Shown here: positions 973 through 52,881 of the stretch, in pieces
Layout of the letters: every line of letters begins with the position of its first letter
How positions within the stretch are numbered: position 1 is the first letter of the stretch
Virus record (IMG/VR): IMGVR_UViG_3300008952_000052
Location: 1-59,885 of that record
DNA: 59,885 nucleotides
Reading direction: 5' to 3' (one strand)
Source: a virus
Made by a program: the position numbers and the translations under genes
Notes under the pieces: generated by a model
What the model saw: only the letters and a program-made list of their open reading frames with translations
What the model was told of the DNA's origin: nothing
Database searches by the model: none

Positions 973-1011
973 TTTTCCTGTGGGAGAAAACCTGATTTGT
1001 ATGATTATTAG
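973..1011 (+). promoter_or_regulatory. Conserved promoter-like element, copy 1
   Basis: First of five copies of a long intergenic motif. The core here is TTTTCCTGTGGGAG, then AAAACCTGAT, then TTGTAT, followed by GATTATTAG. From the T-tract to TGTAT is exactly 30 bases, as in all the other copies. It stands upstream of the structured leader and the genes at 1179 and 1466. It is probably a phage promoter, but the assignment of -35 and -10 boxes is not clear. Confidence 0.65.
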
Positions 1012-1146
1012 AAATGGAAATCACCTTGAGAAAGCTATGAAAAATTTCTCCACAATACTTGTGTCGGTGATTTAGAGGAAGCATTTGTTTTATTTTCTGC
1101 CTACAAGATAGGGGAAATCTTAAAACGGGGCTTCCTCTTCCATTTC
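1011..1146 (+). ncRNA. Highly structured leader RNA, branched fold
   Basis: Non-coding stretch directly after promoter copy 1. Nested pairings found by hand are: 1011-1019 with 1138-1146 (9 bp closing stem); 1020-1025 with 1066-1071 (6 bp), enclosing two hairpins, 1028-1033/1045-1050 and 1051-1055/1059-1063; and 1075-1082 with 1130-1137 (8 bp), continued by 1087-1091/1122-1126 and a hairpin 1105-1109/1117-1121. About 44 base pairs cover 136 nt, with helices that abut. A run of eight C (1156-1163) before the SD AGGAG could contact the GGGG loop (1111-1114). It may be a cis regulator of the gene at 1179, an antitermination element or a separate RNA. Only the pairing is observed. Confidence 0.6.
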
Positions 1147-3815: not shown

Positions 3816-3844
3816 GGGAGAGAGGTCTAACCCACCTCTCTCCC
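3816..3844 (+). terminator. 11-bp hairpin with T-rich tail
   Basis: GGGAGAGAGGT (3816-3826) pairs perfectly with ACCTCTCTCCC (3834-3844) around CTAACCC. ATTCTTATTTT follows. The shape is that of a leaky intrinsic terminator between the 2505 and 3869 genes. The segment just upstream (TTCT at 3784, CTGTAT at 3804) weakly resembles the promoter element, so it could instead be another promoter-proximal hairpin. Confidence 0.5.
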
Positions 3845-4138: not shown

Positions 4139-4326
4139 TGGTCAAAGAAATCTGGACTAAAAAAGAAGATGCTGAAGCTAAGAAATCCAAAGATGATTTT
4201 GAAAGAAGGCAAGCCGAATTGAAAGCAAAGTTAGGTCGTGATCTGACGAGAGATGAAACCCTTTCCTGTCTTGTAGAGGAATTGGATGCTTCTGAATTCA
4301 ACAAAGATTGGAGGAAATTCAAATGA
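4138..4326 (+). CDS. Short charged helical protein, 62 aa
   Basis: The ORF is open from 4126, but ATG 4138 has the SD GGAGGGG and the TAATG overlap. The protein is almost wholly charged helix (EDAEAKKSKDDFERRQAELK) and would form a coiled coil or helical hairpin. No enzymatic motif is present. It is coupled downstream to the 4323 gene by ATGA. It may serve as a small binding partner of a neighbouring protein, which is inference. Confidence 0.7.
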   Translation: MVKEIWTKKEDAEAKKSKDDFERRQAELKAKLGRDLTRDETLSCLVEELDASEFNKDWRKFK

Positions 4327-7435: not shown

Positions 7436-7591
7436 TGTTTTTTCTCCAAAAATAAAAAGTTTTCTCAATAAGTGAACTGTATAAAATGATTATTGTTTGG
7501 CTTTCAGGGTTTCAGGTCACGACCTAACTTTGCTTTCAATTCGGCTGGAAACGAAACTATCTCCATACTCGTCCTCGCTCATAGGAGAATC

Positions 7592-8130: not shown

Positions 8131-8166
8131 TTCTATCAACCTCCCCCTGTCACTGTATAGGGGGGA
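8131..8166 (+). promoter_or_regulatory. Possible degenerate promoter with C/G hairpin
   Basis: TTCT (8131-8134) is followed 18 bases later by CTGTAT and AGGGGGG, which partly resembles the conserved element but lacks its GTGGGA and GTATTAG boxes. CCCCCT (8143-8148) can pair with AGGGGG (8159-8164). This is the only candidate promoter in the gap before the 8237 gene. Weak evidence. Confidence 0.3.
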
Positions 8167-8206
8167 TGTGAGAGGCAATCCGCTAATCACAAAATCAACA
8201 ATCTAT

Positions 8207-8220
8207 CAGACTTATGTCTG
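8207..8220 (+). promoter_or_regulatory. Small hairpin before SD of the 8237 gene
   Basis: CAGAC (8207-8211) pairs with GTCTG (8216-8220) around TTAT; TAAATAGGAGGAG follows and holds the SD. The position is like the SD-proximal hairpins at 1862, 2145, 2474 and 9871, but it lacks their CC prefix and has a longer distance to the SD. Confidence 0.45.
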
Positions 8221-9870: not shown

Positions 9871-9893
9871 CCGACTGCCTTGCAGTCTACGGA
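9871..9893 (+). promoter_or_regulatory. SD-proximal hairpin, copy 4
   Basis: CC, GACTGC (9873-9878), loop CTT, GCAGTC (9882-9887), TACGGA. All six pairs are kept although four of the six stem positions differ from copies 1 and 2. ATG 9900 is 12 bases past the stem. Confidence 0.65.
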
Positions 9894-49374: not shown

Positions 49375-52300
49375 TTAGTATCCCCCACTGGAGGAATATG
49401 AAGTACCTGCTGACAGACGATTGGAAACACTGTCAGAATCGTATAAAAATTCAAAGGTTCCCGGAATTAGATACTCAATCGGCCCAGTTTCAATACTGGA
49501 AACACCTTCACTTCTACCTACAAAATAAGTCACATCGTAAGTATATGAAGTTGGAATTTCTTCATAGGACATCGTGACCAAAACCCTGTTGGCTGTCATA
49601 CTAACAGCAAGATCGTTTATTTCATTCTCTGTCTTTGAAGGATAAAGAGCCTGTAGTGTCTCCTGATCTGAGTATCCTTGGATAGACATCCCTTCATATC
49701 CTATGATGAAAGCCCTTCCCGATTTCTCTACAAAAGGAAGCCCCTCACTATTAGGAATATCTACAATTATTTCTAACGGAGTGGTTCCTTGATACACGGC
49801 TCTGAATTCATTTACTGATCCACCACCTGTTAAGGTATCTGAGTTTAGGGGGTCTTTGATGAGATATGTGCAGACCTCATTTGTAGACCAAGCATCTATT
49901 TTCACAATGTCAGCATCTTCACTGGCATCTATAGCTTCTCTTACAACATAGGATTCTTCTGTTCTACTCACCTTTGTAAGAGGAACCACCACATAAGAAA
50001 CACCAGTGGTATTATCTATCACTTCAATAATATCAGATTGTCTAAGGGGTGTTCCGAAAGATAGAGAATTAAAGAGGTTGTATAATCTTCCTCTGAGTAA
50101 TCGATCCACTACGGACATTTCAGCCCCTTGTGAAAGAATGACCGTTGCAGAAATATCTACAATATTCCTAACAGCCTCTTTCACAACAACATCGGCTGTT
50201 AAATGCTTCATATTGTTAATGCTGTTCTGAGCCACACTCAACATAGAATTCACCGAATACGTCACAGTGTAATTCTCATCATGCTTATAGGAAGCTATAA
50301 CCACAGATCCTGACGGAATAGCACTGTTTTCGGTTCTCTGAATACCAAGAGGGGTATTATCATCTCCTTCAATAACTCTATAATCAGGAAAAGAAGAAGT
50401 AGGTGAAGCGTACTCCGTACCCTCAGAATCTGTGATAACTATCGTCAAAGGGTTAATCCCTAAATACCGAAGATAATCAACAGTATTTCCAACCAAGATA
50501 TGTTCTTCATCAGTAACAGTTGTGACTGAACCAAGATCCTTCTCTGTACTTATTTGTATGTGGTCAGCAGCTAAGGTTGAGTACCCCATTTCCAGAATAG
50601 ATTGTTTGCGGTATAGGGCATATTCGGTATCGGTAAGAACCACATTACTTCCAGAAACGTCAATCAAAGAAAGTACTGGCTGTCTGGACATTGTGAAAGC
50701 ATTGCTGGTGCGGTAGCGGTAATCTCCCATGACGACATCTGTTAAATCAAGATCAGCAGGGTCATTATATTGACTGGAAAGCTGAATTCTATTGTAAGAA
50801 AGAATGGTCAGCCCTGTTAAAACGAAATTCGTACCTTCACTGTGGTTTCGGATACCATAAGGAGGAACCTCATCAGGCAAATCTAAAACTTCTATCAAGG
50901 GATTGTCCAGCGTAAGATTTTGATCTTGGATTTCAAAAATAAGATCCTGCGGATCACCAACCACTTCAAATTGAACATCCCTCTTTGTTTCAAAAGAAAA
51001 GGCAAAATTGTCTGTAACGATTGAATCTTGCGACCCCCGTATATAAACATCAACCTTCCCACCTTTGTGTTGTTGAAGGGTGTTGTCATAATCTCTCTTC
51101 ATCAGGCTCTCTCCAGAACCAACAATCTTACTTTCAGCCACACCAGCCAAACCTGAAACCAACTGCCGATAGCCTTGAAGGGTTCCTGTATCTACAGAGG
51201 AAAGGGTGTGCTGCGCCCTTACAGCCAATTCTCTATTACTCTCTTGATCTCTACCTCCAAAGAAAGTCTCTTTATTCCTCACAAGTACGTTCAAACCCGT
51301 AACAGTAGTGATTTTCCCCACCGAAACATTTCCAACAAGCCCAGAAGAATTGCAGATAGCAAATGTCGTAACCTCATACCACCCCGTAGAAGGGTCGTAG
51401 TGTGAGATCAAATTCCGTAATGAAATTTCAGTATAGGCTGTCGTTCTAAAGGAGAGGCTTCCAGCAGAAATTGTCGTACCAAGAGGGATACTATGCGTTG
51501 TTGTTGGTTTTGAAGTTACATAGAAGGTGACTTGACCTCTGGAGGGAGTGCCACCTCTTCTATAAACCCCAACATTAGAAGCCAGTTTTTCAAAAGCAGC
51601 ATCTATAAGATTCTGCGCTTTCATTGAATTTTTGAGGTAAAAAGACTGAGCTAAAGCCTGTTTGTATGGTGAAGAGGCTGGTGAGATTGAAAACCCTGAA
51701 TTTGTAGGATCATCAATCTCTAATAGAGTGCTGAAAGACTGTGTACGAGAAAGGAAATCAATAAGAAATCGTAACCTCACGCTCTCAGCAGACATTGGAT
51801 CTATAAAAGTATCTCTTAATACCGCACCGGGCTGAACAGCTATGTTTTCATTGGCTCTGTGAATGGAGGTAACAATTTCCCTAACTACCTGTCTTCTGGA
51901 AACAGTGGGCAATGAGGCAGTATTCAAAGAAAGCTGTATCGGATATCCAACAACCTCTAAAGAATACGGACTTTCAAACTCCACACCAGAAATCGTATTG
52001 TAATAAACCGCAGTTACTACATAATATAAAGGTCTATCCAAAGGAGTAGAAGAGAACTCATTATCAGGTACTGTAGAAGGAGTTGAATTTATGCTCCCAA
52101 GCCTATTGTGAGTGAAAGAGTATCGGTTTTTCTTGGCAATGCTCTCTACTGTAATCGAAGTCCTAAATTGTGTGGTCGCTTCATTAACCGCCATTCTCTC
52201 GTTAAATTCAACAGATACGGTATCTCCTTTAGTGTCTTCCTGATACCCAAAAACCCGAAAGTAAAGGGGGTCTACAGTAAGATCTCCATTAGCATCCACA

Positions 52301-52881
52301 GATGGAGTAGAGTCTACTGCCAGTTGTCCAATTATGGTAGTATCCTCAATCACTTTATCAACATCTCCTATGGGAGATGGATTAAGGAGTTTATACCCTA
52401 TTGATCCACCACCCTCTGAAGTAGCTGCGTAGTAATTCATACCAAGGAACTGTCTTTCATAGGAATTGGAAGCAGCTATCTCTGCGGAAAGTCTCACAAG
52501 TCCAGTTAATCTTTCTACCCTTACTCCAACAGGAATCCCCGACACAGCAGGTAGCTCTTCACTCTGCAATAGAGTGACCCTAATTAATGCTTCCTCCGTG
52601 ACTGAACCATCTGTTAGGATAGACCTAACCTTTATTATGTTTTCCCCTATCATTAAAAGGTATCCATCTGGATACTTAGAGGGGCTTGGTATTGAAAAAG
52701 TCTCCCCTTCAAATGTGATTAGGTCTGGATTATCTTCAAAATCCCTCCCCAAAACAGAAATCTGTAAGTAGGCAGTGTTAGGATCTATTTTGCCTTGAAA
52801 AAACCTACTTTCTATAGATGTGGAAAAGCTAAACTCCTCTCTATACTTCCCATCTGGACATAAAAAACTTGGTGATATCAT
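49375..52881 (-). CDS. Baseplate J/gp6-like wedge protein, 1168 aa
   Basis: The middle region (about residues 330-600) has the baseplate-J order: RQVVREIVTSIHRA ... LRDTFIDP ... LRFLIDFLSRTQSF, then a beta domain with IPLGTTISAGSLSFRT, GLVGNVSVGKITTV, and finally FFGGRDQESNRELAVRAQ with TGTLQGYRQLVSGLAGV. This last motif, GG-x-D-x-E-x-x-x-x-x-x-R and the following helices, is typical of Mu gp47/T4 gp6-type wedge proteins. The protein is longer than most J proteins (usually 350-660 aa) because of extra N- and C-terminal beta domains, as in large myoviruses. Neighbours are gp25-like and fibre-connecting genes. Confidence 0.85.
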   Translation of the reverse strand: MISPSFLCPDGKYREEFSFSTSIESRFFQGKIDPNTAYLQISVLGRDFEDNPDLITFEGETFSIPSPSKYPDGYLLMIGENIIKVRSILTDGSVTEEALIRVTLLQSEELPAVSGIPVGVRVERLTGLVRLSAEIAASNSYERQFLGMNYYAATSEGGGSIGYKLLNPSPIGDVDKVIEDTTIIGQLAVDSTPSVDANGDLTVDPLYFRVFGYQEDTKGDTVSVEFNERMAVNEATTQFRTSITVESIAKKNRYSFTHNRLGSINSTPSTVPDNEFSSTPLDRPLYYVVTAVYYNTISGVEFESPYSLEVVGYPIQLSLNTASLPTVSRRQVVREIVTSIHRANENIAVQPGAVLRDTFIDPMSAESVRLRFLIDFLSRTQSFSTLLEIDDPTNSGFSISPASSPYKQALAQSFYLKNSMKAQNLIDAAFEKLASNVGVYRRGGTPSRGQVTFYVTSKPTTTHSIPLGTTISAGSLSFRTTAYTEISLRNLISHYDPSTGWYEVTTFAICNSSGLVGNVSVGKITTVTGLNVLVRNKETFFGGRDQESNRELAVRAQHTLSSVDTGTLQGYRQLVSGLAGVAESKIVGSGESLMKRDYDNTLQQHKGGKVDVYIRGSQDSIVTDNFAFSFETKRDVQFEVVGDPQDLIFEIQDQNLTLDNPLIEVLDLPDEVPPYGIRNHSEGTNFVLTGLTILSYNRIQLSSQYNDPADLDLTDVVMGDYRYRTSNAFTMSRQPVLSLIDVSGSNVVLTDTEYALYRKQSILEMGYSTLAADHIQISTEKDLGSVTTVTDEEHILVGNTVDYLRYLGINPLTIVITDSEGTEYASPTSSFPDYRVIEGDDNTPLGIQRTENSAIPSGSVVIASYKHDENYTVTYSVNSMLSVAQNSINNMKHLTADVVVKEAVRNIVDISATVILSQGAEMSVVDRLLRGRLYNLFNSLSFGTPLRQSDIIEVIDNTTGVSYVVVPLTKVSRTEESYVVREAIDASEDADIVKIDAWSTNEVCTYLIKDPLNSDTLTGGGSVNEFRAVYQGTTPLEIIVDIPNSEGLPFVEKSGRAFIIGYEGMSIQGYSDQETLQALYPSKTENEINDLAVSMTANRVLVTMSYEEIPTSYTYDVTYFVGRSEGVSSIETGPIEYLIPGTFEFLYDSDSVSNRLSAGTSYSSSGGY

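Follow-up and report, generated by a model that had tools for sequence, protein, structure and literature searches.

Genomic setting of the leader

The window analysed here is the whole of virus record IMGVR_UViG_3300008952_000052, 59,885 nt in length. On the right, very large virion proteins are encoded in a long block on the minus strand. This block is largely collinear with the 485-kb uncultured phage LR745208 and with IMG/VR contigs. Contigs carrying relatives of one of these virion proteins reach 619 kb. Given the collinearity with LR745208 and the size of these contigs, the window probably represents a jumbo-phage fragment. A protein of a 20-kb contig (IMGVR_UViG_3300007513_000248) is 100% identical, in its best segment, to the baseplate protein encoded at 49375–52881 of the window, indicating at least two samplings of the same phage or of one very close to it. 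The left 10.7 kb consists mostly of small plus-strand genes, largely without relatives. Found there as well are a 35-nt inverted repeat (97% complementary; 4212–4246 and 7512–7546, 3.3 kb apart) and, according to a terminator scan, a strong terminator-like hairpin at 3816–3844 (GGGAGAGAGGT/ACCTCTCTCCC, then ATTCTTATTT).

Near the left end, ORFs 677–964 and 1179–1469 are separated by 214 nt, a distance that for adjacent early genes called with confidence is mostly –4 to 127 nt. The gap holds 1011–1146, a segment that had been described as non-coding; it is indeed intergenic and contains reading frames of only 8 and 12 codons. These tiny frames, 1014–1040 (MEITLRKL) and 1037–1075 (MKNFSTILVSVI), overlap and are joined by ATGA, possibly by chance. 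Attenuation through such leader peptides was set aside, because there is no terminator for the peptides to control; the terminator scan lists none in this leader. Downstream on the plus strand lie a gene for a 96-aa acidic protein (1179–1469; pI 4.2) and the second gene of the predicted transcript (1466–1765; 99 aa). Searches for protein relatives of these two genes returned none, and the predicted structure of the 96-aa protein is of low confidence (pLDDT 58).

A repeated promoter in the early region

The intergenic segment is preceded by a copy (P1, 970–1011, plus strand) of the repeated promoter TTYCTGTGRGR-N5-CCYVAYYTGTATR. The window contains five copies, P1–P5 (at 970, 1781, 2393, 7588 and 9788), each of them in the early region and in plus orientation, compared to 0.01 expected with up to three mismatches allowed, the pattern itself having been derived from these copies. 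The phage promoter copy that the original prediction placed ahead of 1011 is thus real and belongs to a five-member family. Taking TATNNN after TG as the –10 box sets the predicted +1 at 1011/1012, 1822/1823, 2434/2435, 7629/7630 and 9829/9830 for P1 to P5, respectively; the –10-like element of P1 is TATGAT (1000–1005). We infer that these are early promoters. The pattern was absent from the 50 relatives scanned and, in an exact-pattern scan, from IMG/VR. At ~8140–8175 there is a possible sixth promoter (CCCCCTGTCACTGTATAGGGGGG), the –10 of which lies within an inverted repeat.

A predicted branched fold beginning at the putative +1

A structured RNA had been proposed to lie directly after P1, with folding against shuffled controls suggested as a check. 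The minimum free energy (MFE) of 1011–1146 is –47.5 kcal/mol, compared to –26.6 for shuffled sequences (z = –5.95, none of 200 shuffles being as good), and a repeat run gave z = –6.31 (0/500). Among 3,985 windows covering both strands, this is the most extreme 136-nt fold after correction for GC content. The right and left arms folded alone give z values of –5.0 and –3.1, respectively. Moreover, the first base of the fold coincides with the +1 predicted from the –10 box. Fold energy and fold start both support the proposal.

The MFE structure has 53 pairs in 8 helical segments, with mean pair probabilities of 0.88–0.98, and every pair stays within 1011–1146. The anticipated topology is recovered, with a closing stem (1011–1018/1139–1146), a left arm (1019–1072) that splits into hairpins 1028–1050 and 1051–1063, and a long right arm (1074–1138) of 27 nearly continuous pairs. 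The closing stem comprises 8 bp rather than the 9 bp claimed, and the helices abut at 1050/1051 as proposed, whereas the abutments given as 1019/1020 and 1137/1138 are each one base off (1018/1019 and 1138/1139 in the MFE structure). The original prediction also envisaged a pseudoknot between a run of eight C (C8) downstream and a GGGG loop. Neither GGGG run forms a loop, as both are paired, and freeing either one would cost 7.1–7.4 kcal/mol, compared to about –6.9 for the GGGG/CCCC duplex; the pseudoknot was rejected.

The P1 leader runs 167 nt to the AUG at 1179, opening with the branched fold and continuing as a C-rich single-stranded spacer (1147–1178) that contains C8 and the Shine-Dalgarno (SD) sequence UAGGAG (1167–1172). 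With folding from +1, the probability that C8 is unpaired is 0.84–0.99. The SD falls outside the branched fold, with only a weak local hairpin at the start codon (1169–1186) predicted nearby, and folding of the growing chain yielded no competing long-range structure. A fold this self-contained could belong to an independent small RNA, a riboregulator or a decoy, that the leader releases. There is no terminator at 1146 and an open SD lies 20 nt downstream, however, so 1011–1146 looks like a leader, and we regard a released small RNA as quite improbable.

A cis-regulatory or processing element—an operator for a phage protein, a ligand sensor, or a site for RNase III within the long right arm—is a minority possibility that does deserve weight. 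The near-continuous pairing and low z of the right arm would fit such a role, as would the weak start-codon hairpin and a large branched shape that exceeds what end protection needs. Because a simple hairpin would be enough for end protection, the 136-nt fold may serve a different or additional purpose. Yet the fold offers no alternative structure that sequesters the SD and no terminator switch, and it lacks an Rfam match: against Rfam 15, nothing in the window reached the gathering score, and 900–1250 gave sub-threshold chance matches only.

Leaders behind the other promoter copies

P2, P3 and P5 each head a plus-strand cassette in which the promoter is followed by a leader of exactly 70 nt, arranged as a 5′-terminal hairpin, an unpaired stretch and a hairpin abutting the SD. 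The 5′-terminal hairpin has 12 bp in P2 (cassette 1781–1892; hairpin ~1825–1851), 8 bp in P3 (2393–2504; ~2436–2456) and 5–6 bp in P5 (9788–9899; 9829–9847), and the SD-adjacent hairpins span 1864–1878, 2476–2489 and 9873–9887, respectively. In all three leaders, pairing begins 0–3 nt from the predicted +1. P4 (7588–7649, plus strand) is the exception, with a bare, unstructured leader of 20 nt. Compared to shuffles, the leader folds give z values of –4.3 for P2 (0/300), –2.7 for P5 (2/300), –1.4 for P3 (29/300; not significant for the whole leader) and –0.06 for P4. Windows over the P2 and P3 leaders are also within the top ten GC-corrected folds of the 3,985.

A criterion of 6 bp or more, with pairing that starts no further than 3 nt from +1, has a background of 30% and is non-discriminating, so hairpin energy was used as the statistic. 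By this measure, the 5′-terminal hairpins rank in the top 0.1% of early-region positions for P2, the top 2% for P3 and only about the top 16% for P5. Of all 70-nt stretches preceding plus-strand ATGs, 3.8% show the two-hairpin layout, compared to three of the five promoter copies. So high a share is unlikely by chance, though the criterion was formulated after the leaders were seen. The 5′-terminal hairpins are unrelated in sequence, suggesting that their position, not their sequence, is selected. By contrast, the SD-adjacent hairpins of P2, P3 and P5 (GATCCTtttAGGATC, GACCTtttaAGGTC and GACTGCcttGCAGTC) stay paired despite changes on both sides, providing within-genome support for the second hairpin. 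Hairpins of this family are also seen at 2147–2161 and 8207–8220, with compensatory changes among the copies and a pattern of CCGA...TC followed by GGAG or GGA before ATG, which the 8207 copy fits more loosely.

The recurrence of promoter plus stem-loop between small orphan genes, and the UUUUAUU that follows the P5 hairpin, could point to a PeSL-like promoter-terminator cassette, with stem-loops that would halt transcription arriving from the gene upstream or act as sites of recombination. However, the P1 and P2 structures are not followed by a U-tract and are not listed by the terminator scan. With no U-tract behind it, the P1 structure is unlikely to act as a terminator, and we rate the PeSL-like explanation as rather unlikely overall.

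The original prediction offered the HK022 put RNAs as a model. Antitermination by put acts via the zinc-binding domain of the RNA polymerase β′ subunit; a put-like nascent RNA would bind the polymerase, which would then ignore terminators in the early operon. The location directly at +1 resembles putL, the P1 RNA is compact and multi-helix, and terminator-like hairpins lie downstream. A covariance model built from seven putL-type sequences recovered the held-out putR (37.5 bits, E = 1.6e-7) but gave no match in the window, where the best score was 1.9 bits, on the wrong (minus) strand, and alignment of the P1 RNA to putL was no better than shuffled. Homology to put was rejected, and the model brought no gain. 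The P1 RNA is also about twice the length of put, and the operon immediately behind it is short. The other four promoter copies carry an unrelated simple hairpin or none, which makes it unlikely that the promoter set shares a specific RNA that binds polymerase. We therefore consider a put-like antiterminator unlikely, while a similarity of action without homology is possible. Equally unlikely, in our estimation, is a new class of phage leader RNA in one jumbo-phage lineage, in which the branched 136-nt fold would act directly on polymerase or a host factor, put-like in action and unrelated in sequence.

Search for relatives

A covariance model of the P1 RNA, which scores its own sequence at 170 bits, gave no further match in the window, in five relatives or in 80 related jumbo-phage records. 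Pattern scans of IMG/VR for the P1 RNA and for the SD-adjacent hairpin found none, nor was DNA similarity to phage records detected. The closest relative that a query protein identified, at 70% identity, is an 85-kb contig (G002). It carries its own repeated and unrelated promoter, GTTACTTTTCGA-N5-GAGGGTAGACG, in about 11 copies, and the leaders behind it are not unusually structured. This repeat (L110 17057–18470, L111 14744–17048) is reminiscent of sigma-B-type promoters. As the RNA and promoter are absent from the relatives searched and G002 has a different promoter, the promoter–stem-loop cassette appears, on present data, to be lineage-specific.

With no homologues found, the P1 fold is without covariation support. 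It is a single copy, and its closing stem can be read as terminal inverted repeats, as might be expected of a chance or DNA-level feature with no RNA role, such as a mobile hairpin element or its remnant. Against this stand the energy and first rank of the fold and its start at the predicted +1. In addition, all four wobbles are G-U on the plus strand, which folds better than the minus strand (–47.5 versus –44.4), and no target-site duplication abuts the element. These data make a chance or DNA-level origin very improbable.

A model for the leader

RppH and 5′-sensing RNase E need single-stranded 5′ ends, and 5′ pairing blocks both, which explains the long-known stabilizing effect of 5′ structures (PMC3997798). 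The structured leaders have in common a predicted paired 5′ end at +1 and an open ribosome site downstream. Taken together, these considerations make stabilization the likeliest role, and we tentatively favour the view that the P1 RNA is an ompA-like leader that sequesters the 5′ end and stabilizes the mRNA, as part of a promoter–stem-loop cassette. The 136 nt would form the 5′-terminal part of the mRNA from P1. The closing stem would pair the very first transcribed bases and so render the 5′ end double-stranded, leaving the SD region outside the fold and open to ribosomes. Such an end would shield the transcript from 5′-end-dependent decay (pyrophosphate removal and 5′-end-sensing RNases) and thereby increase the output of the early genes downstream. 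The P1 RNA would then be the most elaborate of this phage's promoter-plus-stem-loop leaders. We infer all four elements of this model, namely P1 firing, +1 at 1011/1012, 5′-end-sensitive decay in the host and the stabilizing function.

Consistent with a stabilizing leader are the excess folding energy, the fold start at the predicted +1, the P2, P3 and P5 hairpins, and the lack of a competing structure or leader terminator. The unlike sequences of the 5′-terminal hairpins also count in its favour, since generic end protection predicts them. On the other side, P4 has no hairpin, the whole P3 leader falls short of significance, and the promoters of the closest relative have unstructured leaders.

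To our knowledge, little is known about how jumbo phages protect and tune their early mRNAs. In the design seen here, a single promoter recurs in fusion with a 5′-terminal stem-loop and an SD-adjacent hairpin, the leader being fixed at 70 nt, and one copy (P1) is enlarged to a branched 136-nt RNA. This design is amenable to direct reporter tests.

Comparison with known systems

HK022 put is a structured phage RNA of about 70 nt with two stem-loops and conserved sequence (PMC9378689). The P1 RNA likewise lies immediately downstream of an early promoter but is unmatched by the put model. PeSL cassettes of T4-like phages are reported to combine an early promoter with a stem-loop described as a terminator (Arbiol 2010, Comeau 2014; both cited in PMC4503421). 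The cassettes described here share with them a repeated, presumably early promoter and a stem-loop directly after it, at four of five copies, between small orphan genes; they differ from the terminator stem-loops of those accounts in that P1 and P2 lack a U-tract, and the phage is unrelated.

The 5′ UTR of E. coli ompA and its kind is reported to have a stabilizing 5′-terminal stem-loop (Emory 1992, Bouvet and Belasco 1992, Arnold 1998; cited in PMC3997798 and PMC7509114). Unlike ompA, the P1 element is a single 136-nt branched fold of unrelated sequence, and its stabilizing effect is a prediction. Like ompA, it has a ribosome site in open RNA downstream, and it would share a paired 5′ end at the predicted +1. 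The order of the ompA leader, hairpin–spacer–hairpin–SD, is also that of the P2, P3 and P5 leaders.
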